Assembly (NCBI RefSeq): GCF_032118995.1
Contig: NC_092650.1
Span: forward strand, 3,100,001-3,164,000
Direction: 5' to 3'
Length of the DNA stretch: 64,000 nucleotides
Source of the DNA: Asterias amurensis
Taxonomy: Eukaryota; Echinodermata; Asteroidea; Forcipulatida; Asteriidae
Made by a program: the position numbers and the translations under genes. Shown in pieces: positions 7,308 to 64,000 of the stretch. Position 1 is the first letter of the stretch. The number at the start of each line of letters is the position of its first letter. The notes beneath the pieces were generated by a model. That model was not told the origin of the DNA. It did no database searches and worked only from the letters and a program-made list of their open reading frames with translations.

Positions 7308-8840
7308 AGGCAGTGGACACTATTGGTAATTACTCAATATAATAATAATAATAATATGAAACATTTATATAGCGCTCTACGGAGAACAGAGCGCTTTACA
7401 TGAGACTATGACAACAAAACAAAAGAAAAACAAACAAACTAGGATGGGTGGGGAAAAAGAAATGTCTTGAGGAGGCTTTTGAAAACAGGCAACGAGATCG
7501 CCTCTCTCAGACCCGCGGGGAGCTCATTCCATAGGCGAGGGGCAGCTATGGAGAATGAGCTATCCCCAGCTTTCCGTCTAGTTCTAGGAACGGAAAGCCG
7601 GGTCTGATCAGCTGATGAGCGGAGTCGTTGCCTGTATTCATCAGCAGTATTGGAGTTTTGGGAATGAACAAGTTCAACCAGATATGATGGAGATTGGGTG
7701 TGGAGGATTTTGTATACATGAGTGAAAATTTTGAAGTTGATACGTTCTTTAACAGGGAGCCAATGCAGCGATGCAATCAGGCCGGCAGAAGGCTGGTCAC
7801 GGCCACACGCAAATACTAGCCGAGCGGCCTTGTTTTGTAGACGCTGGAGTCGAGCGAGGTCATTTTCGCGGGCACCTACCAAAAGAGAGTTGGCATAGTC
7901 AAGACGGGACAAGACCAGACTTCTGACGGCATGATGGCAAGCGCTTTGTGTAATAAACCGGCGAATACGCCATAGATTACGTATGTGGAAATTAACAGTT
8001 TTACATACAGAGCTAATGTGATGAGACATATTCAGAGAACAATCAAGCGAGACTCCTAGGTTCTTAACAGATGTGGAAGCAGGAATTGTAAAGTCGGCCA
8101 ATATTAGTTCAAGATTAGGGAGAGTGGATAAAACATGACTGTTCGCAAAAACAATAAACTCCGTCTTTCCCTGGTTCAGCTGAAGCATGTTTTGAGCCAT
8201 CCATTTGTTGATGGCAAGCACACATGATGATAATTTGCTGAGTACACGCTGACGATCACCTTCAGACTTAGGGTCAAACTCAGCATAAAGCTGAATATCA
8301 TCAGCGTATTCATGAAATGAGATACCATGTTGACGAATGATCTCGCCAATGGGATTGGTGTACAAAATGAAAGCCAACGGACCTACTATGGACCCCTGAG
8401 GTATGGAATAGGTAAAGATATGATGTCTTGAGAAATCGCCTTTTATCGAAACTTTGGTGGTACGGTTTTTGATATAAGTGCTGAACTCAAACAAATTATT
8501 AGCATAAAACCTTACTTGGTAACCAGTAATGGCGAGAGGTTGATAGTATAAAACATCTTGAGAAACGGCTCCCTCTGAAGTGATGTAGTTTTCGAGAAAG
8601 AAGTAATTTTCCACAAATTTGATTTCGATACCTCAGATTTAGGACTTGAGGTCTCAAAATCAAGCATCTGAAAGAACACGACTTCCGCGTGACAAGGGTG
8701 TTTTTTCCTTAATTAGAAATCTAGCAACTTCGACGACCAATTGAGCTAAAAATTTCACAGGGTCGTTATTTTATGTACATGTTGAGATACACCAAGTGAG
8801 AAGACTGGTCTTTGACAATTACCAACAGTGTCCAGTGTCT
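7308..8840. mobile_element. Family A MITE split by a LINE insertion
   Basis: TTAA at 7304-7307 and 8841-8844 bounds a family A element. Its left 30 bases (7308-7337) and its remainder (8485-8840) are separated by a LINE copy at 7338-8484. Confidence 0.85.
7338..8484 (-). mobile_element. 5'-truncated non-LTR retrotransposon (CR1/L2-like)
   Basis: An uninterrupted reading frame (stop at 7439-7441) covers about 347 residues of reverse transcriptase from motif IPQGSIVGPL through EYADDIQLY (catalytic Asp pair) to the thumb and the conserved C-terminal RLWNELPAGLR...KTFLF block typical of CR1/L2-type elements. The upstream RT fingers and endonuclease are absent, so the copy is 5'-truncated and inactive. 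The 3' tail (7338-7400) has AGCGCTATATAAATG followed by TAT/TTA repeats. Flanked by the 6-bp duplication ACTCAA (7332-7337 and 8485-8490). The first about 43 codons of the open frame (8614-8486) belong to the host MITE, not the LINE. Confidence 0.9.
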
Positions 8841-18900: not shown

Positions 18901-21900
18901 ACTACTCCTAGGAGATATTAAAAACATAAGGCTAGTCCTAAGTTAGGACGAGTAACTCATCCTAACTAGAGATAAAACTAGTCTTAACTCTTTATAGAGT
19001 CCACCCCAGATGTCTTACCAACTAGACCACCGAGATTACCCGGTAGATAGAGGCAGTTAGGTCCATTGACCTGACACACCTGGGTTTTTTAATTTCCAAG
19101 CAATGGCCCCTTGATCTTAATCTTAGTTATACTATTTTTTCAATATTTTTTACCAATCGAATAATTTGTGTATCACGACATATGACTATATTGTTTCTGA
19201 TTCAGAAGGATCATATCACACATTGCAGTTTGTTTTAAATGTATTTGAAGCCGCTGTGGCAGGAGATTCAGTGTCTCCCCCCCCTTAAGATTCAGTCCCC
19301 ATATGGCAAACTGTGTACAAACATCTTCTGATAGCACCCTCTTTTTAGTAGTCCTCCTCAGCCCATGTTAACTTCCCAATTGGGGGACCGAATCTCCGGG
19401 GGACAGAACTCCCTGGGACACCATGTTTAAAATCTTGATATGACTTCATTATTCCTCAGGGCCTAACGGAATGCTACGAGTGTGTACCTCAGCAAGCTAC
19501 AAAGTCTTATCCTGGATGTACAATCCGGAACACTCCTTCAGAACCTATTCATTGTATTGTGTGGGCTAAGCATCTGTTTAAGTAAGTAACTTTGTTACAA
19601 TGAGGGTATTTCCAATCAGTCTATTGAATGATTCAGTCAGCTTTACTGAATGTACTTTTGATTTCCAATCAGTCTATTGAATGATTCAGTCAGCTTTACT
19701 GAATGTACTTTTGATTTCCAATCAGTTTATTGAATTATTCAGTCAGCTATACTGAATGTATTGAATGATTCAGTCAGCTACATGCTAAATGTACTCTTGG
19801 TTTCCAATCAGTCTATTGAATTATTCGGTCAGCTATAACTAAAGCACTCTTGATTTCCAATCAATCTATTAACTTATTCAGTCAGCTATAATCATTGTGC
19901 TCATGATTTCCAATAAGTCTATTGAATGATTTAGTCAGCTATATTGATAGTAATCTTAATTTTCAATGCTGTTGCATGATTCAATCAGCTTCCCCCCTGA
20001 ATGTTTCTATTGAATGGTTCAGTTAGCTAGACTGAATGTACTCTTGATCTTCAATTACTCTATTGACTGATTCAGTCATCGATACTGAATGTACTCTTGA
20101 TATCCAAACAGTCTATTGACTTATTCAGTTAGCTATACTGAATGTATTCTTCACTCACAATCAGTCTATTCCAATCAGTCTATTGACTGATTCAGTTAGC
20201 TTACTGAATGTACTCTTGATTCCCAATCAATCTATTGACTTATTCAGTCAGCTATTTGGTGAGGAGGATCCCGACCAGGATGTATCTCCAGACACCGCTG
20301 ATCCCGAGGCTTCTGGTGATGCCGGCCAAGCTTCAATGAACACAGAGAACCCAAATGATGGTTTAACCTCAACAATGGAAAGGACCTCTACAAGAACATG
20401 GGCAGAGTCCACTGATTATAACGCACAGAAGATATTTAAAAAGGTTAGTTTTGAAAGGCTCGGGTACTTTTTGAAAGTCCACAAACGCCCACAGATTTAC
20501 ATAAGCCTTTTTGAGGTATGGCGGACGTGATACTCGCGCGTCACATGCCGCGACTGATGCCACGTTCACCATGTTGGTGGTCATTAGGTTTACGTGTAAA
20601 CGCCGCGCCGCCTAAAATGCGCACTTCACTGAATAACATACGTTCTATTTCTATGGTCAACACGCACAAATTCACTACAGCTTTACAGTGTTGTAGCATT
20701 GTGTCCGCCATATCTCAAAAAGGCTTATTGAACTTATACGGTTTGAAGATAATGATGGTCAAAAGCTTCCCTAAAAATGATTATTTCCTGAGGTTCTGTA
20801 GTCTTTGAGAAATGATTAAAACAATTTTTCAAAAATAATTTTTGTCTTGGTGAGACGAAAATTATTTTAGCATGTACAACGGATTTGCGCAATTCTCCTA
20901 AAAAAAACATTGCTCTGTGAGTTTCACTTTTCTTTCTTAAAAACTTGACGACTAATGAAGTTGAAACTTCTACAGGTAAATGATATTACACACATCTTCA
21001 TCTACAGTGAGTAGGGATTCATGTCATGGCCGAACCCTTTGTCAACCTTGACTACAAAACAATAAAAGCATTTTTAACCTTGATTCCAACAGTTGTTTCA
21101 TGATGACATCAAGTACCTCTTATCAATGGACAAACTTTGGACGAAACGACGACCACCAGTCCCATTGGTGTGGGATAATTTACCTCAGGAACAAGGTAAG
21201 TTTTACATTTAAATAACTATAATCAAATCAAAATAGCTGCAATTTTAGTAAATTCATTTATGTTCCTGCTGTGTATCTTACTAATGAGGTCACTACCCAT
21301 CAAACCGAGAAAGGAGACTTCCTGCCTCACATTTAAGAATGAACTCCAAACCCATCTGTTTTAATAAGTTCTCAAACCCCACCTTAAATGGTCATGTGAC
21401 CACCTTGCCGCTATGAGCAAGTTTGAGTGTGCACCATGGTTATTTAAAGGTTGACTATTTTGACTTGAACCCAGGCTGATCGACCATTGGTTGACTACTA
21501 ACTATGGTCGACCATTTGGAACCAGCTTCATGACCATGGATTCTTCCGTGGTCCCGATAGCCCGTTCAATTCTAAAATGTGTAAAGCGCGGAGGGGAACC
21601 AGTGAGACTTGACGAAAACGCGGAAGGCAATGGAATGTTGAATACCGTGGTACTGATTGTTGAGTAGGCTTCCAAACGAGTCGTTCGAGTGAGTGCGTCA
21701 CTGACTGCGCATATGCATTGCTGGTCAGTAGTCGACTACATGTGTGCACTCGAACTTACTCCAGTTGGCTGCCTAAACTAACTGGGGTATTTATGAATAA
21801 AATGAAAGGCACTTTAAATTTAACCTAAGCAGTTTGATAGTTTAAGAACATTTATTTTGAAACAGAACTGGAACAGAGCCAAGAGAGCATTGTGTTACAT

Positions 21901-31100: not shown

Positions 31101-32114
31101 AAGTAGGATTTGAAACTTTGCATGGTGGAAATAAGATATAGAAGAGTTTGCGGTAACACCATGTAAGGACTGTCTCTAAATGAGTTGGGGTGGTTCTGAA
31201 AAGAACCGTTGGATTAACTCTGTCTCTAAATGAGTTGGGGTGGTTCTGAAAAGAACTGTTGGATTAACTCTGTCTCTAAATGAGTTGGGGTGGTTTTGAA
31301 AAGAACCGTTGGATTAACTCCTACGGTTCTCTTCAGAACCACCCCAACTCGTTTAGAGACAGTCATTACATGGTGTTACCGCAAATTCTTCTATATGGAA
31401 TGAACTTGGTGCTTTGTGAATTGTACAATTTATAATGTGAGTTCTGTTTGATTGATCTTACTAGTGATACGCTCCCAGAGGATGTTGAGTTTGAAGTAGT
31501 GAGTCGATCTGCGGACACTGCACCTCAACCAGAACAATCAACGGAAGACGTTAAGAATGAAAGTCAACCAGGAACCAGTAGCAATGGTATCCAGACTTCT
31601 AACAGTAACAACACAAATGGAAATGGACAAACAGCGGGTAAGTCAGGATATCATTTCATTTTCATTTCATTTTTATGTTGCAAATCTTTTTTCTTTTTTT
31701 TAAGACCCCTTTTGTAACTGTTTTGTATTTATAAAACATTGTTGCCAATCTCTATCTCTTTAGGACATTGTTGCAACTTTTCTGTACTTATAAAACATTA
31801 TACAAAACAGTTGCTATCATTTGTTGCAAGTGGTTTGTATTTATAAGTTATTGTTGCAAATCTCTATCTTTATAAATCCCTGTTTCAACTGTTCTGTCTT
31901 TCAAACAGATGAAGACGATGACCTAGAAATAGTCATGCTGGACGATGAAGACCAAAAGGAAACCACAAAGATCAGCAAGAAGAGGAAATTATCATCGGAG
32001 GATTTAGACTCTAATGCCGCATCCTCTTCAACTCCTGCTAAGAAAGCTAAGATGGTTCAACTAAATCAGCAGGATGAAGAAGAAGATGAAGATATCGTGC
32101 TGCTTGATGATTGA
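15944..32114 (+). CDS. UBA2: SUMO-activating enzyme subunit 2
   Basis: Complete. Seventeen exons: 15944-16087, 16890-16973, 17219-17289, 17554-17618, 18562-18662, 19460-19581, 20248-20443, 21093-21195, 21866-22005, 23802-23895, 25359-25471, 26463-26564, 28577-28630, 29793-29889, 30095-30197, 31465-31637, 31909-32114 (TGA). The sum is 1968 nt, 655 aa; human is 640. With SAE1 it adenylates SUMO and carries it as a thioester to UBC9, mainly in the nucleus. Seen: nucleotide fold [17 protein letters not shown] near residue 20; [19 protein letters not shown] (Cys160/163) and CYVC (Cys437/440), the structural zinc cysteines; PGCTIRNTP with catalytic Cys175; ubiquitin-like domain in exons 13-16; a basic KKRK/AKKAK nuclear-import stretch; and acidic [11 protein letters not shown] and DEDIVLLDD segments resembling SUMO-interacting motifs. 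Intron 6 ends in a minisatellite that duplicates the exon 7 acceptor. Confidence 0.97.
16559..16801. mobile_element. Family D foldback MITE in UBA2 intron 1
   Basis: GGGCCCAATTTCATAGCGCTG ... CAGTGCTATGAAATTGGCCC inverted ends. Confidence 0.85.
17842..18168. mobile_element. Family H MITE in UBA2 intron 4
   Basis: Ends GGCCAAATAACCAGTTGATC and its complement near 18137-18168 (GATCAACTGG...AATTTGGCC). Related copies at 43900-43985 (part), 44288-44755 and 53650-54004 share the GCGGGCGGGGACG/AAAAGGAGGAGG segments. Confidence 0.7.
18250..18520 (-). mobile_element. Degenerate tRNA-Leu-like SINE copy
   Basis: Minus-strand head GTGGTCGAGCGGTTATGGGC, GCTGATCAG and later CTTCAGGTGG/ACCTTAACC segments match the family with many substitutions. 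Confidence 0.55.
18700..19070 (-). mobile_element. SINE B copy interrupted by family E foldback
   Basis: TTTGCATTGGGGATAAAGAT, GTGGGATTCGAACCCACAAC and CCAACTAGACCACCGAG are SINE B landmarks. At 18855-19010 a family E foldback (TTTCACAGAGAGCAAGGACTAG ... ACTCTTTATAGAG, with the CTAGTCCTAAGTTAGGAC arms) sits inside it. Confidence 0.65.
19600..20247 (+). repeat. Minisatellite built from the UBA2 exon 7 splice acceptor
   Basis: About a dozen imperfect units, mostly near 53-55 bp with some shorter, of the type TTATTCAGTCAGCTATACTG...AATCAGTCTATTGA. The last unit runs straight into exon 7: its ATTCAG is the acceptor and TCAGCTA are the first seven exon bases. Internal units keep ATTCAG|TCAGCTA but then read TACTGA. 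Confidence 0.9.
20450..21080. mobile_element. Family C repeat copy in UBA2 intron 7
   Basis: Shares the CACAGATTTACATAAGC, GAAATGATTAAAACAATTTT, GGTGAGACGAAAATTATTTT and GAAACTTCTACAGGTAAATG segments with the other family C copies. A CG-rich insert of 120-180 bp lies at about 20515-20720, bounded by AAAAAGGCTTAT-like and CCTTTTTGAGGTATGGCGGAC sequence. Confidence 0.6.
22054..22290. mobile_element. Truncated family A MITE in UBA2 intron 9
   Basis: Begins TTAAAGGCAGTGGACG, then skips to GTAGTTTTTGAGAAAGAAG and continues to GAGATACACCAAGTG. Internal deletion and right end missing. Confidence 0.7.
23500..23750 (-). repeat. Repeat G copy
   Basis: GGTAGATGGCCTTAGCTTTC ... AATCCGGACCTTCTTCAG ... 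GGGAAAGGGATTAAGG is the reverse complement of 59180-59395. Family unknown; both copies are intronic. Confidence 0.6.
23943..24305. mobile_element. Family A MITE in UBA2 intron 10
   Basis: TAAAGGCACTGGACACTATTGG at the left; the right end is decayed (GACAATCACCAAACG). Same orientation as the 2046 copy. Confidence 0.75.
24901..25280. mobile_element. TTAA-flanked family A MITE, complete, inverted copy
   Basis: TTAA at 24897-24900 and 25281-25284. Ends AGACACTGGACACTATTGG and CCAATAGTGTCCACTGCCT. Opposite orientation to the 23943 copy in the same intron. Confidence 0.85.
25651..25787. mobile_element. Foldback MITE (family J)
   Basis: AATGGGAGACTTTCAGGAAG ... GCGCCTCAAAGTCTCCCATT inverted ends, with TGGCAGCAGACTTA/TAAGTCTGCTGC arms. 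Sister copies at 37231-37379, 43715-43870 and 61873-62162. Confidence 0.8.
25796..26133. mobile_element. Two family D pieces side by side
   Basis: 25796-25885 is a partial element of the CGTAAGC-type (CATGAAATACGCTAG ... GCAGAGCCATGAAATTGGGC). 25913-26133 is a full element (GGCAATTTCATAGAACTGCTTAAG ... GCAGATCTATGAAATTGGGCCC). Confidence 0.75.
26606..27236. mobile_element. Family C repeat carrying a family A MITE
   Basis: Family C sequence (CTTTTGTAGATCAGGTATTTGG ... and AAGTGAGACTCACAGAGCAATG ...) is split at a TTTAA. The insert 26716-27002 is a family A MITE with TTAA at 26712-26715 and 27003-27006; its left end is internally shortened. Confidence 0.75.
27720..28240 (+). pseudogene. Broken transposon-type zinc-finger protein fragment with hairpin
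   Basis: From 27726 the frame reads [20 protein letters not shown], then [16 protein letters not shown] and a stop. A one-base-shifted frame continues as [25 protein letters not shown], and further on HC..KH. The C-x2-C...H-x4-H pattern and the KTTW.W.W lead resemble the BED-like zinc-finger N-terminus of DNA-transposon-derived proteins (inference). An A-run near 27831-27842 probably shifted the frame. The last about 100 bp (27975-28075) reappear inverted at 28143-28240. Confidence 0.5.
27975..28240. repeat. Inverted repeat, arms about 95 bp, with homopolymer core
   Basis: GGTGGCAAAGCATCGGGAGT at 27976 pairs with its complement near 28219-28238. The arms continue through TTTGCATAAAATTATTATTCCCCCC. 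Between the arms are C14, A-, T- and G-runs (28063-28150). Likely hard to sequence and a possible assembly weak spot. Confidence 0.85.
28745..29128 (-). mobile_element. tRNA-Leu-like SINE, full-length copy
   Basis: Minus-strand head GTGTCGTGGCCGAGCGGATA, CTTGTGTCCTTGAGCAAGAC, ACAGGCTGTATACTCCCC, then a tail GCGCAAAATAAGAAGCCACT followed by TAT repeats. Confidence 0.85.
29459..29643. mobile_element. Family D foldback MITE in UBA2 intron 13
   Basis: CCAAATTTCATAGAGCTGC ... GCAGCTCTATGAAATTGGG inverted ends, about 185 bp. Confidence 0.8.
30293..30541. mobile_element. Family D foldback MITE in UBA2 intron 15
   Basis: GGGCCCAATTTCATGGCTCT ... AGAGCCATGAAATTGGGCCC perfect 20-bp ends, CGTAAGC-rich interior. 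Confidence 0.9.
30618..31020. mobile_element. Family C repeat copy in UBA2 intron 15
   Basis: GGGTTTGGGCAATTTTTGTA ... CTACAAAAGGTATCAAA, with GTCTCGGTGAGACAAAAATT in the middle. Inverted ends are weak but visible. Confidence 0.7.
31138..31397. repeat. Foldback element with three 50-bp tandem units in one arm
   Basis: The left end TAGAAGAGTTTGCGGTAACA is complementary to the right end near 31378-31397. Left-arm unit CTGTCTCTAAATGAGTTGGG... recurs at 31170, 31220 and 31270; the right arm (31321-31395) has a single complementary unit. The phrase CATGGTGTTACCGCAAA recurs alone near 11120, 23390, 47055 and 57575. Confidence 0.85.
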
Positions 32115-52756: not shown

Positions 52757-55700
52757 ATGGATACTGATGGATTTGGTGATCTACTGCGTGACGCTGAACA
52801 GCTGACCGCAAATGTGGATAGTGGAGCTGAGTTGCCCCGGGTGGAGCGTAATCTACATCAGATTATGGAATCCAGTCAGCGCTTATGGACCAAGACGGCA
52901 CAAGTTGGGGCTCCTGATGCAGCAGATGTTAAAGCGTGAGAATCACTTTTGATCACTTTCCTTCAAAAGAATTGTGTGCATTTTAAAATGTTTTTACAGC
53001 GGTTTCAGGCCTGGAATTTCATCTTTGAATGGGCAAGGCCATTTTCATTTTGCAAAGGGCACTTCAATTGGAAAGTAAATGGGAAACTTTTGAAGGGGCA
53101 CCAAGGCCGAGAGCAGGGACAACTGAGCCTGTGTGTAATTCCAGGCCTAGTGTTTATTAGAAAAATGTGGGTGGGTTCTAGTGCCAAAACAAAAAGACGT
53201 TTGTTTTGGGCTAAATTTTTGTGTGATACAGATATATCTATCCTTCAGTGTTGCGATATCGGAGACTACGTTAACAGAATGAACATCGCCAATCAATTTG
53301 GTCCTTATAACCTTATCTTGTAGGAATTTGCTAATGCTGCAGTTTGTATGCTTCATTTTTGAAAGGGCAAGGGCACCAAGGCATTTTCTCCTTGGGACAG
53401 GGCACTAAAGGGGCATCTAGGCAACCGGCTACGTGCCTCAGTGAAGTATCAGGCCTGCATTGAATAACTATAAATGGCTTGTTTTATATTCTCTTGCAAC
53501 AGTTCGATTCTTCTAGGATCCAAGGGGATTGATGTTCCAAGGATTTCACAGAGACTTGAAACGCTCAGCACCACCAAAACATTTGAGCCGCTGGAGCCAA
53601 TTGCTGATACAGATATACAGGTAATAAGAAGCTGGTGTTAAGTGCATTAGGCCAAGTGAATAAAGAAACATGATTAGGGTCCGGCTTTCTCAAAAAAAGG
53701 AGGAGGGGCATTTTTTTTTTGTTTTTTAGTTTTTTCAAGATGGACGCCGTTCCTTTAAATGTCAAATATCCATTGTTTTTTCTACTGTTCAAATACACAA
53801 CACATAAATGAAACATTTTGGACCAGACATTCAGATTGTTTTAGCTGAGATCGTTTAAAGTAACCTTTTTTTTTTTCATAAAAAAAAAATTAAATAATAA
53901 AAATCATTAAAACCAAAGTTTTAAAATGTGCAAAAAAAGAAGGAGGCGTCTTCTAAAAAGGAAGCGGGCGGGGACGCTAAACAAGTTTTGTTATTACTCG
54001 GCCTAACTCTCAATGTAGAGAAGGGAATCTCACTCGCCAACTTAAAGGGTTTGGTACCTTTTTGTAGATAAAGTATTTTGCCATGAATCCCTACTCTCTG
54101 TGAATTAAGATGTATGTAATATAATTTACCTGGAGAAGTTGCACATCATCAGTTTGCAAGTTTTTGAGAAAAAAAGGGATAATCGCAGAGCAATGTTTTC
54201 AGGAGAGTAGTGTAAATCCGTTGTACATGCTAAAATAATTTTTGTCTCACTGAGGCAACAATTTTTTTGTGAGAAATTGTTTTACTTTTTTCTAAAAAAT
54301 CACAGTACCCCAGCTAGTGATACTTTAAGGGAAGCTTTCCACGTCATTATCTTTAAACCGTTTAAGTTTAATGTAAATCTGTAGTATGTTAGCGTCTTAT
54401 GTTCACTAAATGGCTCTCAAACAAGATTTAATTTCATAAAGCTGATGTTTATTTTGCAGAGTTTTCTTAGAAATGAGAGAGAAAATGCTGTCCTTGCTGT
54501 CATTCAGGAGACCAAGAAAAATGTAAGAAGGCAATTTTAGAATTTTTTTTTATTGGAAACAATTATCAGGCCTGACAAATATATTGGATGCTTGTTAGGG
54601 AAAGTCACAGAATAGATGTAATTACAAGACCAGATCTAGATTATTTGTTTTGTTTTGTTAATTCTGGTTGTGATGCTAAGGACTCTCGGAAAAGCATTTT
54701 CTTTTAGATTTGGGAGGAAAAACCCTCAAAGTCAAGTAGGGAACTAAAAACCCAATCCACATAGTGCCCTGGTGTGATTTCAACCAGCTTTTTCTAGATG
54801 TGAAAGGCGAGGAAAGATACCACTATGCCAACCCGACCACCCATTAAGTCAAATAGTGGGGTGGGGTGTCAAGGCCGAGCGGGTAAGAGCACCGAATTCA
54901 AGCTCTGATGCTTCTGTTCTGCAGAGTGTGGGTTCGAATCCCGGTCGTGACACTTGTGTCCCTGAGCAAGACACTTAACTATAATTGCTTCTCTCCACCC
55001 AGGGGTAAATGGGTACCTGTGAGGGCAGAGATGGTTCTTGTGATTGATTTAGCTGAGTAGCGCATATTAATGTTGCACAGGCTGCATACTCCCCACCAGG
55101 GAGCTGAGATGGTTTAAGGAGTGAATTAAGGCCCAGTGACCAGGGGTAATAATGTGAAGTGCCTTGGGATGCCCCCGGGTGTGAAAAGCGCTATATAAAA
55201 ACGGGTTATTATTATTAAAAGCCAGATTTAACAGAGTGATTATATTCTATTACAATACCTATCGATTAAGTTAAATGGTTTTTTTTTTTAGCTGCTCGCT
55301 CTTGGTGGATTTAGGGCCCACCACTAAAAATTGGTCTAGCTACAACACTACATCACACAATATGTTACTTGTTACTTTGTAGACACTACAGCAGACCGAG
55401 AAGCGATTCTGGGAGACCATGCAGTCCGAATGGCAGGAGGAGAGACAGAAGATTCTGAACGCTTTGATTAGTACCGGAGAAGACATGATTGATATTGGAC
55501 CGGAGACGGAGTCCATATTGAATGAGACTGTTGGTATGGAGGGCCGTAGTGCTATGGATAGCGTTGAAATGGCCTATGCACGACAGGTGATTATATAGCC
55601 TTGTTAAATTCTGGATCTGGATCTGAATAAATATTCTCAATGCTCTTATTAGAGCCAAACGAGAAGAGAAGATGATGAAGAAATGTCAGTTTTAGATGTG

Positions 55701-58700
55701 GGAGGAAAACCCCAGAGAATAATTTCAGGGAAAACCCACACCGTCTAGTAGGGACTGAAAACCCAGTGCCGCCACCCTTTGTGTATGTTGTGCTTGTTTA
55801 CTGTGAAAGAAGGAAGTAGGCAGATGCCCTGTGTTTATGTTTTGCTTGTTACTGTTTGTTTGTTTGTTTGTTTGTTTGTTTCGTTTGTTTGTTTGTTTGA
55901 GTGGTTAGATGATCTTCCCATCAAGGGAACTTGGCAAACTCCCAGGGGATACAAATGGCAAGCTGGCAACAGCCAATCTCTCTCATACAAACATTGGTTT
56001 AACGTCTATGATTATGAATTATACACACCAAGAATTTGTGATTCAGTAACTGAATGACAATACTTATTCTATAGTCATTGTGAAATCAGTGGTTAGCTGG
56101 GGGGGGGGGGTTGTTTCAAACCCACAACCTTGCTTTTGCAAGTCCTGCAGTCTAACCACTTGACCACGGTGATATACTGTGAATGAATTGCTTGGCGTAG
56201 CTACATTTATTTTCTTTTTACTTTTGTTTATCCATTCAGGTGTATTTGTATAATGATAAGGTCGTACATGGAGGAATCCGACCCAATCTCATCCATGATT
56301 TTGAGCAAGTCAGCCATCAGTTTGATGACAAGGTGGGTACAATCAACTCTTTAACTTGCACAAACAAATTTGCACAAAAATTTGCACAAACTCTTTAATT
56401 TGCAAGGGCACCAAGCCATTTTCTCTTCATTGGTAAAGGGCACCCTATGAGGAAATCGTAAATTTCTACTGGAGCACCAAGGCAGTGACCAGGGGGCATT
56501 ACTGTAGACTAGGCCATGTTTGGTCATTGCATGTTCAAGAGGAATGTTTAACAAAATCTCAAAATTGTTTTTATGCCAAATAGCGTGTGAGTGAACTTTG
56601 GGCCATGGTGCGTGAGATGTCATCAATTCCTCTGATATCATCAAGAGATGCAATCCAGACAAGGTGCTCACAAGAAATGCAGATGTCGTTGATTCGTCAA
56701 GCTCGATCTTACCTTGAGACCAGGTAAAGACATTATTTTAGACTTTAAAGTCTGTCAATATTGGGTTTAAGATGCTTGGTCTGTGTCAGTATAAGGTTTA
56801 AGATTTTTGTAAAGAAAATATATCGCCTAACTCAAAAGGCCGAACGGCCTTATGAAGTTGAGGGCAACACTAAATTGATTTGGGCTATCATATCAACCCA
56901 AATCAACTGTCACCAGGGAAACAATGTAACCTACTCCTGGGGCTGAAATAGGGTTACCCCTTCGCAGGCCGTAAAGGATGTAGGCGTGGGTATCGTTCAC
57001 TAGGAGCCTGGCTGGTAGAACACAATGCAATACATTCCCAACTTTTTACGACGCAATTTTTTTATGGTTAAGTGCCTTGCTCAAGGGCACAAGTGTCATG
57101 ACCAGGATTCGAACCAACACTCTGCTGCTGACAACATCAGAGCTTGGGTCCGGTGAACTTGACCGCTCAGTCGTGAGTTTATAAAAAGCCTCCATAGTAA
57201 TGTTGGATGTTTTTCACTATTTTCAGCTACTTGACTTACATTCGTACGATCGTTGGTGAGAATCTCCAGCGAGCCCAAGTTGGTGGAATCCCAGGAACGT
57301 ATCACTTGGTCCAAGGGTTTCTCAAAGTCAAGTTACTTCATCCTATACCAGGATTAGAGGTAAGAATGTATTTCTCATGATGATGACTAGAGTAAGCTTG
57401 TCAAAACTTTTGAAGTAAATAGTTAGAAGTCCCCTGGATCCACTCAACCGAAAATAGTAGTACGACCCATTTTCTACCTTCCGCCTAGATAGTAGTTAAA
57501 AAGTAGGTAGTAGAACATAATGCAAGACAAGTTCTCCAAAGAACATAATCTACCCAGGAAGTAGATACACACACATGGTGTTACCACAAACCAAAATATG
57601 TAGCCTCTAGCTACCGGGCAACCTCGGTAGTCTAGTTGGTGAGACACTGCTCTAGAATTGCAAGGGTCAAGGGTTCAAATCCCACCCGAATAACATGCCT
57701 GTGATATTTTTTCACAGGACTCGGGGAAAGTACTTAACTTACAGTGCTAACACATATCGGTGTATGGGTAAAAAAAAAAGAAGTCTTTATCCCCGATGCA
57801 AAATGTAACATCTTAAATATATATTGATCATCATACTCACATTCAAGGCACTACATGGTTCAGCTCCACCCTACATACACGATCTCTTGACACCCCGTAC
57901 AACTAGACCAGGTCTAAGATCTATCAGAAATACGCTCCATGTTCCCCGAACTCGACTGGTCAGTTATGGGGACAGGGCTTACTCCAACATAGCACCAAGA
58001 CTCTGGAACTCACTTCCGGATTACCTCAGACAAATACACAACATCACTCTCTTCCAGCAGAAACTCAAAACACACTTATTCTTGCTTGCTTTCCAACATC
58101 TTGACAAAACTTGACCGGCGCCTTTGAATGTTTCTCCTTTTCAGTAAAGTGCGCCTTATAAATGCTGTAGTTTATTATGATACCTCACCATGCAATGCCT
58201 CAAATCCCATGCCTTTCACTTTATTACTATCTTTATTACTCCAACCTTGTCTTTCATTTGTTTGCTTGCTTGTTGTTTAGTTTGTCTTGTTATTTTTCAA
58301 TTAGTTACTGATGTTCCAATGAATATGGTTTAACTTACATACAAAGTAAATTGAGTTTGTATTCTTGGTTTAGGACGGTGAAGTTGATGGACAGCCTGTA
58401 TGGCCAGTCATTTACTACTGTCTTCGCTGCGGGAGTCTGGATGCTGTTCTACACGCAGTCCGAAGAGCATCGTAAGTTTTATTCTTCATGTTCATGAAAT
58501 CCAAAACATTTTTGAAACAAATTATTTATAAATAAAAAAAATTGTGGTTATCCTGAGGATTATAAATAAAATCTTATGGCAAAATTATTGAAAATTCAAA
58601 CATTATTCAAACTGTAGGTTTTTCTCCTTTCCAGTCAAGATCTCGGGCAGTTTGAAGAATACCTTAGAGGCTACATGGAAAATGATGACAGAAGGTAAGA

Positions 58701-61700
58701 TCTTTTAAACCAAAACATGAAATATGCTTGAATCCACCAGCCGTTTCAGTAAATTCAACCCCCCCCCCCCTCCGATTGAATCATATCCCATCATACTACT
58801 GTTGCCCCCACATTCATATATTATTGACTGTACTTTTTTGATGATGATTTGTGGAAATAAACATAGCTTTGAATTGAATTGAGAATCAAAATCATGGATT
58901 TATTTATTTGATTTACTTCCTTTCTGTTGTTATTTTTCTATCAAGGCTTTCTCCAGACATGCAGACAAGATTACGTATCAGTTACAGACGATCTGTGAGA
59001 AACAGCCCTGATGCATACAAAAGGTTAGCTTCTAATTGTACAAATTGTTGATTGTTTTGCTTTCTTTTCCAATTGGCGACTCATGGCACAAACTAGCATT
59101 CTCTTACAATTGATGTTTGTATTGAATTGTAATTTGCTTGTGATTAAGACCACCATTCTCAATTTATATCATGGTATATAGCCACCAAATTGTTTATAAA
59201 TTGGTGACTTTAAATGGCTATAATTTTTCCCGCCTTTTCTGGATCCCTTCCCTTAATTCTTGGTCCTCTTTTCGCTATAAATGGATATGTATTTGTTTGT
59301 ACTTGTTTATGCCTCTGAGGAAGGTCTGGTTTGGATCGAAAGCTAAGGCCATCTACCCTACTCGTATGATATATCTATATTATATATAATTGGATTATAT
59401 TGAGAATAAGTGTGATGCCCAATGATGATAGCAGTCCTTGCGCTCGTAGCATGGTGGGACTCTGGGTACCAGACTCGCTATGCAATGCTAGACAACACAG
59501 GGACCCTTGGCTCAGGGGACCTTTTATTAGGTCACTGGGCCGGGGGGCTGAGGGCAGTACAAGACTTAGAACGTATCTGAATTGGTGGCTACGACTAGAT
59601 TTCCGCAAAACCAAAACAAATATTCTTTATCCCGATGCAAATTTCCATCTATTAATTTGTTGTTGTTTACCCAAACAGAGCTGTTTACTGCCTGATTGGT
59701 TATTGTGACACTGCGGACAGTCATTTTGAAGTTGCTACAAAGACAGAGGATTATCTGTGGATCAAGGTTTGTAAACATTTCAACTCTTTCTATCGTGGCG
59801 TGTCATGGCCTAGCGGTTAAGAGCACTGGATTCAAACTCTGATCAGCAGAGTGTGGGTTCGAGTCCTAATCATGACACTTGTGTCCTTAAGCAAGCAACT
59901 AACCATGATTGCTTCATAAAGTTGGGGAGGTAGTGCTTTTTGCTCTATTTGCCAGACTTCTGATGGATGATACCCAAGCCTACATCTGTATGGATTGTAA
60001 AGGGAGTAACCCTGTTTCAGCCCCACGAGTAGTTGGCAACGGCTTCTGGTAAAAAAGAATTGATTGTAGCTCGCACCTTGAAGTGGCCTTCAGGCCTTGT
60101 GTGTCTGGTGACTTGCATTAAAACAAAAATTGTACACTTCATGTTACTAGAGCTAGACTGGTCAGGTCGGCATTGGTTTGTCATTTTGGGCCACGTTTGA
60201 CTGATTTGTTGAAGTGTGAACTTGAATGACTGATTTGGGCTGTTCTAGCTGGTCTGATTTTGGAGTGTGTGCTGATATTTATTTACTCTGTGATTAAGTT
60301 TCAAATTTTGTTTTTAACAATTTGCCATGTCTTTCCACCATTGTTGTGCTGTGTTCTTTTGTTAACTGGAATTTGTTACTTTCATTTTTGTGTGGTGTTA
60401 CCATTGCTTGACTTTCTAATGTTTGTTCTTTGCAATTTTATCCAACTTTTTATTGCCTTCTTGTGATCTTATTTTGTACTAATTTTGTACTTTATTATGA
60501 ACACTTAATTTGTATACAGAATTATTGTTGTTTGTATCTTTTACTATTCAATGTGTTTTCCTCATGATTCTATCCCAGTTTTACCTAAATTAGTAATTGA
60601 TCTTATATTACTTCTTGAACTCTATATTGAGAACAAGTTAATATTTAGATAGCAAGTTTGGGTATATAATTTTAAATGAATTTCTTTTTGTTTTTTTTAG
60701 TAGATTTCAAATTGTGCATACAGCAGGCCTGATACTTCACGGAGGCAACGAAGGCGATTGCCTCCGTTGCCCCGGTCCATTGCCTTGGTGCCCTTGAAAT
60801 GCTCCAGTAGAAATTTACAATTTACTCATAGGGTGCCCTTTACTAAAGGAGAAAATGCCTTGGTGCCCTTGGCCTTTCAAAAACGAAGCATACAGGCCTG
60901 ATACAGAAAGTCCGCGTGTGTGTTTTAGCTCTAATGGTGTTTTTATTACTAAGTTTTCTAGTGTAGGCCTATTGATTATTTATTTCTTAGCTTGTCACAT
61001 TTCTGGTCAGGTTTCGAAATAAGTTGTGTAAAATAAATGTGGTTTTGACTCTTTGAGCCATTTTTCTTCTTAAGTTAGTTTTAGTGTTCTATATTTTTAA
61101 TCTTTGTACACAACTGACCTGTTACTTTAGTTACTTCTTTGTAAATATAGCCTTCTTGAGTGCATCGAGGGATCTGTGATCCAGAATGCGCTCTACAATC
61201 GCTGTTTATTAATACTATTATCACTATGTTCGTCTTCAGCTAAGTCAAGTGAGTTTTGGAGAGGACTCCACCGGTCCTATCGCCTCGGATCGTCTGACTC
61301 TACAGCAACTTCAAGTCCTACTCCTTGAGGAGTACGGAGAGACTCATTTCAGCGCGAACCAGAATCCCTATCTATACTTCCAGGTTCTGTTTCTATGTGG
61401 CCAGTTTGAGGCCGCTATCGAGTTCTTATCGCGATCCGACGTCAGGTTACGCTGTCACGCGGTACACGTTGCAATCGCGCTGTACGAGATGGGATTGCTG
61501 ATTCTACCACAGAACATTCAGACACAAGTTTGTAAGTTTCGTTTGCTTTCTTTTTTACTTGATTATGTAATGATAGTCTTTCTTCTGAAGTTCAGTTCAG
61601 TTACTTTAGTACCCTCTGTCTTGGTTCATGTTGTTGATATTAAAGTACGTAGTTATTTAGGATTTTTCACCCTTACCTGTAGTGAGTACAGATTTACCAT

Positions 61701-64000
61701 CACATTAAAAAAAGAATTTCTGTTTTAGTGTTTTGTCCGTTTGATCTTTCAATCCTTCTTAATCTGCCCATTTTTACTGTAATATCGTTGTAAACTTGAC
61801 TTGTTCGGTTTTTTTTGGGAATATAGTCAAATTATATTTGTTTTTATTATTGTACAATAAACCCAAAGAAAGCACTGGGAGGCTTTGAACGCTAGGTGAC
61901 AGCAGACTAAAGGCCGGTTTATAGTCGGTCGCGCGATGGGAATCTTGCGCGCGATCCTTAGACTGAGCCCTAAAAGCTGTGTCTTTTTATGATAGCGCGT
62001 CAAGATTTCCATCGCACAACCATCGCCCGACTGACTATAACTTGGCCTTTACCAGGTAAATTTCCATTGTTGACGTAGTTCTGAGCATGCGAACATAACT
62101 AAGAACAAAGGATTTACCTGGCAAGTTTGCTACCACCAAGCATCTTAAAAGTGTCCCATTGAGTTGAACTCATGCCAGCAGCTCAGTATACAATCTCCTT
62201 TATTTGTACTCTCATTACTCACTAACTGACTCCTACACTCGTCTGTATATTCTACCACAGTGAGTAAACATGTGGATGACCCAGCTCCTATCCGAAGACT
62301 CAATTTAGTCTCCTTTATTTGTACTCTCATTACTCACTAACTGACTCCTACGCTCCTCTGTATATTTTATCACAGTGAGTAAACATGTAGATGACCCAGC
62401 TCCTATCCGAAGACTCAATTTAGTCTCCTTTATTTGTACTCTCATTACTCACTAACTGACTCCTACCCTCGTCTGTATATTCTGCCACAGTGAGTAAACA
62501 TGTAGATGACCCAGCTCCTATCCGAAGACTCAATTTAGTCTCCTTTATTTGTACTCTCATTACTCACTAACTGACTCCTACACTCGTCTGTATATTCTAC
62601 CACAGTGAGTAAACATGTGGATGATCCAGCTCCTATCCGAAGACTCAATTTAGTCTCCTTTATTTGTACTCTCATTACTCACTAACTGACTCCTACCCTC
62701 GTCTGTATATTCTACCACAGTGAGTAAACATGTGGATGACCCAGCTCCTATCCGAAGACTCAATTTAGTCTCCTTTATTTGTACTCTCATTACTCACTAA
62801 CTGACTCCTACCCTCGTCTGTATATTCTACCACAGTGAGTAAACATGTGGATGATCCAGCTCCTATCCGAAGACTCAATTTAGTCTCCTTTATTTGTACT
62901 CTCATTACTCACTAACTGACTCCTACCCTCGTCTGTATATTCTACCACAGTGAGTAAACATGTGGATGATCCAGCTCCTATCCGAAGACTCAATTTAGTC
63001 TCCTTTATTTGTACTCTCATTACTCACTAACTGACTCCTACCCTCGTCTGTATATTCTACCACAGTGAGTAAACATGTAGATGACCCAGCTCCTATCCGA
63101 AGACTCAATTTAGTCTCCTTTATTTGTACTCTCATTACTCACTAACTGACTCCTACACTCGTCTGTATATTCTACCACAGTGAGTAAACATGTAGATGAC
63201 CCAGCTCCTATCCGAAGACTCAATTTAGTCTCCTTTATTTGTACTCTCATTACTCACTAACTGACTCCTACACTCGTCTGTATATTCTGCCACAGTGAGT
63301 AAACATGTGGATGACCCAGCTCCTATCCGAAGACTCAATTTAGCTCGTCTGATCAGCATGTATACCTCTAAGTTTGAGAACACTGACCCTAGAGAAGCTC
63401 TACAGTATTTCTACATTCTAAGGTTTGTTAGTCAAATGGTTTGATACAAAGCTTTCTTTGTCTCTAAGGGTTCACTGCACTTAAGAACATTTATTATATG
63501 AATGATAACTACTCCTTTTGCTAAATTCTAATTTTAATACAGTTTGGGCTAAGCCTGGGCGACTAGTGGCTAATATTGATTGCTTAGTCATGTCGTGACT
63601 ACCATTTTTTAACCACTCAGTTATTTGTGCTGCTACGACTACTGCAAAAATAGTCACGACTTACTGCTTTGTGAACCAATTGTGTTGCTCCCGACCATTC
63701 TCGACACCATAGTTTACTTAAGAAACACACAATCAGACATCAGTGACACAATCCTTCAATCCGTTCAGCACGAATTTTACTATATTGCACCTGTGGCAAA
63801 CAATATGCTGCAATGCATCTTGGGAATTAAAATTTGTCGCAACTATTTGCAGTGCGACTAGTCTAGTAGTAAATTTCACTAGTCGCCCAGGCTTAGTTTG
63901 GGCTGAGTTTTCCCACAATTTATATTTTGTTGTTGGTGACAAAGCTGAATATTTGGTCCTATTAATTCCTTTTCATGTTTATCTTCCCAGAGGACTGAAG
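52757..64000 (+). CDS. NUP93: Nuclear pore complex protein Nup93, 3' partial
   Basis: Exons in the window: 52757-52935, 53503-53620, 54460-54522, 55383-55586, 56240-56332, 56584-56723, 57227-57359, 58374-58471, 58635-58694, 58946-59023, 59679-59766, 61240-61531, 63296-63422, and the start of another at 63991 that runs off the edge. About 560 of roughly 820 residues are present. The start [16 protein letters not shown] matches the conserved N-terminus of Nup93, the helical segment that binds Nup62-complex partners. Further matches: [87 protein letters not shown]. It is an alpha-solenoid scaffold of the inner pore ring. A TTACAG at about 52725-52730 just upstream could be the acceptor of a non-coding first exon. 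The intron before exon 13 holds a ten-unit array of that exon's own splice acceptor. Confidence 0.95.
53010..53460. repeat. Repeat F pieces in NUP93 intron 1
   Basis: AGGGGCACCAAGGCCGAGAG and AGGGCACCAAGGCATTTTCTC with GTATCAGGCCTG. Related blocks at 56400-56510, 60725-60900 and 48262-48345. Confidence 0.55.
53650..54004. mobile_element. Family H MITE in NUP93 intron 2
   Basis: TTAGGCCAAGTGAATAAAGA ... TTATTACTCGGCCTAA ends; AAAGGAGGAGGGGCA and GGAAGCGGGCGGGGACG segments shared with 17842-18168. Confidence 0.7.
54035..54390. mobile_element. Family C repeat copy in NUP93 intron 2
   Basis: TAAAGGGTTTGGTACCTTTTTG ... GTTTAAGTTTAATGTAAATCTG; central TTTTGTCTCACTGAGGCAA. Confidence 0.75.
54867..55218 (+). 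mobile_element. tRNA-Leu-like SINE, full-length copy
   Basis: GTGTCAAGGCCGAGCGGGTA head, TTCAAGCTCTGATG arm, CACTTGTGTCCCTGAGCAAG, then tail GCGCTATATAAAAACGGG and TTA repeats. Confidence 0.88.
55855..55896. repeat. (GTTT)n microsatellite
   Basis: About ten GTTT units with one interruption. Confidence 0.9.
57050..57175 (-). mobile_element. Partial tRNA-Leu-like SINE
   Basis: Minus strand: TGAGCGGTCAAG...CCGGACC, GGTTCGAATCCTGGTC, CACTTGTGCCCTTGAGCAAG; tail lost. Confidence 0.65.
57601..57810 (+). mobile_element. SINE B copy in NUP93 intron 7
   Basis: CCTCTAGCTACCGGGCAACC leader, TCGGTAGTCTAGTTGGTGAG box A, GGGTTCAAATCCCACCC box B, GGTAAAAAAAAAGAAG and CTTTATCCCCGATGCAAAAT end. Directly preceded by ACATGGTGTTACCACAAACC. 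Confidence 0.85.
57824..58165 (+). mobile_element. LINE 3' fragment (CR1/L2-like)
   Basis: Open frame of about 96 codons: [16 protein letters not shown] ... [15 protein letters not shown] ... [20 protein letters not shown] ... KTHLF, the conserved C-terminal block of CR1/L2-type reverse transcriptase ORFs. Tail AAGTGCGCCTTATAAATG. Different subfamily from the 7338-8484 copy. Confidence 0.85.
59180..59395 (+). repeat. Repeat G copy
   Basis: CCCTTCCCTTAATTCTTGG ... TATGCCTCTGAGGAAGGTCT ... GGATCGAAAGCTAAGGCCAT; reverse complement of 23500-23750. Confidence 0.6.
59796..60125 (+). mobile_element. Truncated tRNA-Leu-like SINE joined to repeat K
   Basis: 59796-59910 has the GTGTCATGGCCTAGCGGTTA head and box B. 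At about 59920 the sequence switches to repeat K (TTGGGGAGGTAGTGCTTTTTG ... GGTGACTTGCATTAAAAC). Confidence 0.7.
60730..60905. repeat. Repeat F copy in NUP93 intron 11
   Basis: GGCCTGATACTTCACGGAGG ... TTGGTGCCCTTGAAATGC ... ACAGGCCTGATAC; reverse-complement match to 53345-53455 and 56400-56510. Confidence 0.6.
61873..62162. mobile_element. Family J MITE interrupted by a second MITE
   Basis: Outer element: CACTGGGAGGCTTTGAACGC ... GCATCTTAAAAGTGTCCCATT. Its left arm breaks at AGCAGACTA and resumes at TACCAGGTAAATTTC. Confidence 0.85.
61910..62049. mobile_element. 140-bp palindromic MITE nested in family J
   Basis: Ends AAGGCCGGTTTATAGTCGGT and its diverged complement ACTGACTATAACTTGGCCTT; arms carry GCGCGATGGGAATCTTG and its complement. 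TA on both sides (61908-61909 and 62050-62051) fits a TA target duplication. Confidence 0.85.
62192..63343 (+). repeat. Ten-unit 115-bp array of NUP93 exon 13 acceptor plus exon start
   Basis: Each unit has 67 bases of intron ending in TATATTCTACCACAG and 48 exonic bases starting TGAGTAAACATGTGGATGAC and ending CAATTTAG. Exon starts fall at 62261, 62376, 62491, 62606, 62721, 62836, 62951, 63066, 63181 and 63296, spacing exactly 115. Only the last continues into the full exon (63296-63422). The exonic parts differ at just two third-codon positions. Confidence 0.97.
63423..63990. other. NUP93 intron 13
   Basis: Between exon 13 and the partial exon at 63991. It contains an inverted pair AGTTTGGGCTAAGCCTGGGCG...CTAGTG (63540) and CTAGTCGCCCAGGCTTAG (63876-63894), probably the ends of a further foldback element of about 350 bp. 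Confidence 0.6.

Follow-up and report, generated by a model that had tools for sequence, protein, structure and literature searches.

The 3' splice site of intron 12 of NUP93, a core nuclear-pore gene, lies within a minisatellite in the sea star Asterias amurensis: the end of the intron and the start of exon 13 are repeated in ten head-to-tail units, the last of which is the real acceptor and continues into exon 13. The gene is located at the end of the window, that is, the whole stretch of 64,000 nucleotides (nt) of contig NC_092650.1 that was analyzed here; all coordinates are positions within this window, and features lie on the plus strand unless otherwise stated. The array extends over 62194..63343, and each unit comprises 67 bp of the intron 3' end followed by 48 bp of the start of exon 13. 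Tandem Repeats Finder (TRF) reported a period of 115 with 10.0 copies, 97% matches, and 0% indels, and in the unit alignment all ten units were exactly 115 bp long, with 7 of the 115 columns being variable and a mean pairwise identity of 97.7%. The ten units of exactly 115 bp claimed in a preliminary description of this stretch were thereby confirmed, while the start of the array had to be moved from 62192 to 62194. Minisatellites consist of several head-to-tail copies of units of tens to about 100 bp, which is the arrangement found here, and the array is thus a minisatellite spanning a splice acceptor.

When the acceptor region was scored for copies of itself further upstream in the intron, NUP93 intron 12 reached a score of 155 compared to a maximum of 25 in 40 shuffles of the intron, and the array is therefore not a product of chance. 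Nine of the units are decoys (62194..63228), with the first exonic base after their acceptors at 62261, 62376, 62491, 62606, 62721, 62836, 62951, 63066, and 63181, whereas the tenth (63229..63343) combines the real acceptor with the initial 48 bases of exon 13. Two branch-point-like motifs precede the acceptor AG of unit 10, CTAAC with its A at a distance of 35 nt from the last base of the AG and CTGAC with its A at 31 nt; this stretch contains no variable column and is hence identical in all ten units.

Both the assignment of the gene to NUP93 and the continuation of the tenth unit into the real exon 13, which had been proposed earlier, are corroborated by protein database matches and by the mapping of exons. 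Matches to Nup93 chains of the PDB were obtained with the 143 amino acids that exons 12-14 encode (E values from 8e-47 to 3e-45). Exons were placed by tblastn, using a human NUP93 sequence as query, together with splice boundaries and the open frame, which yielded exons 1-13 and the beginning of exon 14 (52757..64000). This mapped stretch encodes 561 of about 828 amino acids and is 100% identical to its best match, the database protein P0001 (828 amino acids, named for Asterias amurensis). Exon 12 (61240..61531) ends at the donor TTT/GTAAGT starting at 61532, and exon 13 (63296..63422, 127 nt) ends at the donor AAG/GTTTGT. The mapped exons of NUP93 are 60-292 nt long, and the median length of the 29 mapped introns (13 in NUP93 and 16 in a second gene, UBA2) is 670 nt. 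Intron 12 also harbors, upstream of the array, a long hairpin at 61908-62051 (161 nt folded, -74.5 kcal/mol, z -9.0), which by eye looks like a foldback mobile element.

The consequences of using a decoy acceptor are uniform. Exon 12 leaves one base (T), and its junction with any of the nine decoys gives the identical short tail followed by a TAA stop, exactly as had been claimed; only the tenth acceptor keeps the frame open. The stop lies within the CTAAC motif, at 62338..62340 for decoy 1 and one unit further downstream for each of decoys 2-9. The use of a decoy would add 115 to 1035 nt to the NUP93 mRNA and the exon 13 donor would follow the stop at a distance of 162-1082 nt, so that, by the usual 50-nt rule, nonsense-mediated decay of these transcripts is predicted. 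The protein model P0001 continues through the tenth acceptor, and the NUP93 models of Acanthaster, Amphiura, and Lytechinus keep a similar stretch at this position (LSKHLDDPPPMRRLNF, LSKDVDDPAPMRRINF, and LSRDPQDPLPMHRLNF, respectively). The earlier statement that a correct mRNA needs the most distal acceptor thus holds for the normal protein, but it was slightly too strong, as 2 in-frame detours can be drawn on paper, both of which depend on very weak internal donors (see below). Other known arrangements do not apply to the array: a coding repeat is ruled out by the stop after every decoy; a recursive splice site is ruled out because exon 12 ends in T and its junction with the acceptor reads T/TGAGT, so that no donor GT is rebuilt; and, in contrast to mutually exclusive exon arrays of the Dscam type, each copy holds a 48-nt piece of the exon, with a stop behind it, rather than a complete open exon.

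We consider it likely that the acceptor-spanning minisatellite lengthens the intron and is tolerated, with the spliceosome mostly using the tenth acceptor and with transcripts that use a decoy being discarded. Tandem duplication straddling the 3' splice site of intron 12 would have produced the ten-unit minisatellite, the last unit of which still provides the working acceptor. This acceptor would be chosen since it is the only one that joins a complete exon 13 close to its donor, as expected under exon definition, whereas the decoys carry only 48 exon bases. Transcripts using a decoy would meet the TAA in the branch-point-like motif and be removed by nonsense-mediated decay. The array may be tolerated because of this combination of acceptor choice and transcript removal, and every round of duplication would lengthen the intron at little cost. 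Short exons in combination with longer introns favor exon definition, and with its short exons and introns of middling length, NUP93 is likely to be spliced in this way. In line with this, when the 3' splice site was duplicated in beta-globin constructs so that 14, 55, or 205 exon bases followed the proximal copy, the distal site alone is described, in the available text of the report, as being used (PMC5389562).

Several observations nevertheless weigh against a predominant and harmless use of the tenth acceptor. Splicing to the distal site of the beta-globin constructs is described in the same text as very inefficient (PMC5389562). According to the part of the source available, a BRCA1 duplication comprising 395 intron and 1617 exon bases resulted in RNA containing the duplicated block, with the proximal acceptor being used (PMC11839443), although the assay amplified the altered allele only and other isoforms were unquantifiable. 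Moreover, a duplication across an intron-exon boundary in potato is reported, in the text available, to have yielded a new intron and not a silent decoy (PMC4974935). Within the array itself, the real acceptor is not the strongest: on a position weight matrix (PWM) built from 28 window acceptors, the highest score of the array belongs to unit 2 (7.1), compared to 5.8 for the real unit and 5.0-5.8 for the remaining units, and all array acceptors (5.0-7.1) are found at the weak end of the 28 other window acceptors (5.1-17.9). Furthermore, decoy 9 would give an exon of 242 nt, which is also a normal size, and P0001 is taken to be a predicted model, which need not report minor isoforms.

A feature that the preliminary description had overlooked is a donor-like GTGAGT overlapping each acceptor of the array. 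In every unit, the junction CACAG/TGAGT contains ACA/GTGAGT, with a one-base overlap; the motif is located at 62260..62265 in unit 1 and recurs every 115 bp to 63295. From the acceptor of a unit to the GTGAGT of the next, the distance is 114 nt in nine of nine cases, and all nine of these cassettes contain an in-frame stop. The pairing energy of GTGAGT with U1 is -7.3 kcal/mol, compared to -5.4 for the exon 12 donor and -6.0 for the exon 13 donor (the 29 mapped donors range from -4.3 to -12.5), and a consensus table likewise ranks GTGAGT above both (6.6 compared to 5.7 and 5.4, respectively). On a PWM built from the 29 donors of the window, however, GTGAGT scores 3.9 and is placed below all of them (minimum 5.3), the exon 12 donor scoring 6.8 and the exon 13 donor 9.1. 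The measures of its strength thus disagree, and the site is a possible donor. Since donor and acceptor share one base, the use of either should exclude the other. An acceptor bound by U2AF would therefore hide the donor of its own unit; only the donor of exon 13 would then remain free, which would favor the tenth acceptor. Separately, a donor-like CAG/GTAAAT is located at 62056, about 140 bp before the array; it scores 9.05 on the consensus table and is a candidate only.

The differences between units provide some information about the history of the array. Unit 2 deviates from the consensus at five positions, while units 6 and 7 do not differ from each other. The seven variable columns form 21 pairs, 4 of which show all four allele combinations, a pattern that points to exchange between units or to repeated mutation. 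Neighboring units are not unusually alike (observed value of 22 compared to a mean of 23.4 for shuffled orders, p = 0.36), and a stepwise duplication of neighbors, which would cluster like units, is accordingly unsupported. Of the earlier suggestion that the near identity of the units reflects expansion or ongoing homogenization, exchange (or repeated mutation) is thus indicated by the combinations of variants, whereas the order of the units adds nothing in its favor. The base of the real unit 10 at column 60 (with columns numbered from 0) recurs in unit 3 alone, and that at column 43 in units 1, 4, and 9. Two of the variants are exonic, and both are synonymous transitions; this is expected by chance with p about 0.13, and support for a purifying homogenization from the real exon 13 is therefore weak. 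Diversity is alike in the exonic (0.021) and the intronic part (0.024) of the array.

The donor-like sites allow for the reading, unlikely in our estimation, that the array lowers or tunes NUP93 as a series of poison exons: the units would splice together as 114-nt stop-bearing exons, and the copy number would set the amount of waste. At the level of the sequence, the inclusion of any of the nine 114-nt cassettes would indeed bring an in-frame stop upstream of later junctions, and the overlapping acceptor and donor motifs needed for this are present in every unit. The U1 energy and the consensus table, both of which rank GTGAGT above the donors of exons 12 and 13, also speak for this reading, as does human UBC, which according to the available text of the report uses dual-specific sites arranged in a tandem array for splicing (PMC10809524). 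On the other hand, the local PWM places GTGAGT lower than every one of the 29 window donors, its exon-side bases ACA are poor, and the shared base should prevent both sites of a unit from being used together. It is highly improbable, in our view, that new introns have instead arisen within the array, such that exon 12 is joined to a proximal acceptor, a small number of exon bases is retained, and a unit-internal donor is joined to the tenth acceptor, yielding an in-frame protein. While a potato gene is reported, in the part of the source available, to have gained an intron after a single duplication crossing an intron-exon boundary (PMC4974935), and an open frame between the acceptors of units 1 and 10 results from 2 of the 6 GT sites per unit pitch (TGA/GTAAAC, which adds one Met, and TTT/GTACTC, which adds 20 residues), both of these donors are very weak, with PWM scores of -1.3 and -3.3 compared to the minimum of 5.3 among the 29 real donors. 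The U1 energy of -7.1 kcal/mol obtained for TGA/GTAAAC is probably due to the neighboring GTGAGT register, and the database protein P0001 is without such an insert.

Tandem repeats are a classic site of assembly error, and the true copy number in NUP93 could be one or few. We regard such an artifact as very unlikely, however, since the seven variable columns occur in mixed combinations and unit 2 carries as many as five differences, which is unlike a copied contig piece. In addition, one published Asterias amurensis assembly, which is not necessarily the one containing the window, is described in the available text as using PacBio HiFi reads with a mean of 12.5 kb, about ten times the length of the array (PMC10625585). 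Finally, the array itself could be selected, e.g., as a store of intact copies that repair the real exon by gene conversion, to which we assign hardly any probability. The synonymous nature of both exonic variants and the variant combinations pointing to exchange would be in line with such a function, but chance alone would yield two synonymous transitions with the p-value given above, and the exonic and intronic parts of the units are similarly diverse. A tolerated, intron-lengthening minisatellite with a working acceptor at its far end remains our preferred explanation.

While the array at NUP93 exon 13 was confirmed, its portrayal as an unusual structure in a housekeeping gene has to be qualified, as it is not a one-off: an older-looking array is found in intron 6 of UBA2 within the same window. 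About 96% of this intron (19582..20247, 666 nt) is taken up by an array with a 53-bp unit in which the intron's acceptor occurs in 13 copies, the last of which is real; this percentage is based on an array start set by eye at 19609, whereas the TRF row begins at 19608. The 13 copies end in ATTCAG/TCAGCTAT or a sequence near to it, and the thirteenth is the real acceptor (ATTCAG/TCAGCTATTTGG) of exon 7 (20248..20443), the exon beginning in N-QLFGEED. The UBA2 protein of Asterias rubens (P0121) reads HLFNQLFGEED across the intron 6/exon 7 junction and shares 98% identity with a UBA2 query that was joined by hand from the window. The copy score of the acceptor region was 78 compared to 22 in 40 shuffles. 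Acceptor regions copied upstream far above shuffles were thus found in 2 of the 29 mapped introns, NUP93 intron 12 and UBA2 intron 6, a proportion that refers to the introns of these two genes within the window and is not a genome estimate. The two arrays are 42 kb apart.

Like the array of NUP93, the one in UBA2 intron 6 combines its own acceptor with the start of the exon (about 8 bases), ends in the real copy, and has decoys that lead to early stops wherever the AG is kept, which is the case for 10 of the 12 decoys, each of them reaching a stop within 15 codons. Unlike in NUP93, its 53-bp units are on average only 78% alike (range 55-96%) and contain indels, with unit lengths between 31 and 67, the AG is lost in 2 of the 12 decoys, and no GTGAGT was seen by eye. 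In our reading, the UBA2 array arose by the same process at an earlier time, and its decoys are decaying. The higher conservation around its decoy acceptors (0.89 compared to 0.73) was set aside because the units were found and anchored by the same motif, which makes the value unusable as evidence.

A candidate for a third, decayed array in UBA2 intron 16 (31638-31908) was rejected as too weak, with a score of 25 compared to 20 in shuffles and one short gapped match; TRF revealed no repeat unit in this intron that matches a decayed acceptor array. The acceptor side of NUP93 intron 4 was marginally above shuffles (23 compared to 21). Donor-side copy scores exceeded those of 40 shuffles for UBA2 intron 4 (38 compared to 29), UBA2 intron 6 (28 compared to 24), and NUP93 intron 5 (27 compared to 22), the match in UBA2 intron 4 lying, by inspection, within an ATT microsatellite. 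In UBA2 intron 15, a tandem repeat of three 50-bp units, with an inverted unit copy behind it, was noted by eye at 31170-31370. Elsewhere in the window, a short run of telomere-like TTAGGG repeats is present near the start (94-144), and a 397-amino-acid open frame on the minus strand (7439-8632) looks, by eye, like the reverse transcriptase of a non-LTR element.

Together, the arrays of NUP93 and UBA2 suggest a route of intron lengthening through acceptor-spanning minisatellites. As a more far-reaching and rather doubtful generalization, sea-star introns might grow by repeated tandem duplication of the 3' splice site plus exon start, whereby the working acceptor would always be shifted to the far end; NUP93 intron 12 would represent a young and UBA2 intron 6 an old stage, and as long as an array is young, the number of its live decoys would act as a heritable dial on transcript waste. 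In NUP93, near-identical acceptors, each with a branch-point-like motif, compete in a gene that needs exon 13 for the normal protein, so that their use should be readable directly from RNA. This bears on whether acceptors are chosen by exon definition or by first-come scanning in an animal with medium-length introns, and, if the copy number differs between animals, such animals would form a natural series in which the cost of decoy acceptors could be measured.

The underlying process, tandem duplication, is ordinary. What is likely to be new is that it occurs at tenfold scale within the coding region of a core gene of the nuclear pore and that two examples, one young-looking and one old-looking, lie in such proximity; among the open-access literature matches listed, no title or abstract start described an acceptor-spanning array with more than two copies, which does not prove that none exists.

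Duplicated 3' splice sites were reportedly engineered in beta-globin by Reed and Maniatis in 1986, and the NUP93 array represents a natural tenfold counterpart of this classic experiment. As far as the available text describes them, the beta-globin constructs resemble NUP93 in having a proximal acceptor with a short exon (14, 55, or 205 nt; 48 nt in NUP93) followed by the full acceptor and exon, whereas the duplication is engineered and twofold there but natural and tenfold here (PMC5389562). The partial duplication of BRCA1 exon 10, according to the part of the report available, likewise repeats the intron end and the exon start in tandem and leads to an early stop; it differs in having one extra copy with 1617 exon bases, in being a disease allele, and in the presence of the duplicated block in RNA (PMC11839443). 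In the RdRp gene of potato, as described in the text available, the duplication likewise covers the 3' end of an intron together with the first part of the following exon and thereby includes the branch site, tract, acceptor, and some exon sequence (PMC4974935). In contrast to the ten units of NUP93, there is a single duplication in potato, and the reported new intron obtained its donor from the duplicated exon piece, whereas a working internal donor in NUP93 is doubtful. For a gain of introns, an acceptor and a donor would be needed between copies: acceptors are present in all units, but GTGAGT is fair by U1 pairing and poor by the local PWM, and the in-frame donors are very weak. A parallel for the overlapping sites is human UBC, which, in the available part of its description, has head-to-tail units with a site of both acceptor and donor character at unit pitch, as do the ten sites from 62260 to 63295 in NUP93 (PMC10809524). 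However, while the UBC sites have an AGGT core and lie in coding, in-frame units of 228 nt, the NUP93 junction reads CACAGTGAGT, with AG and GT overlapping by one base and sharing a single G, and its 115-bp units, which are not a multiple of 3, turn every decoy into a path to a stop.

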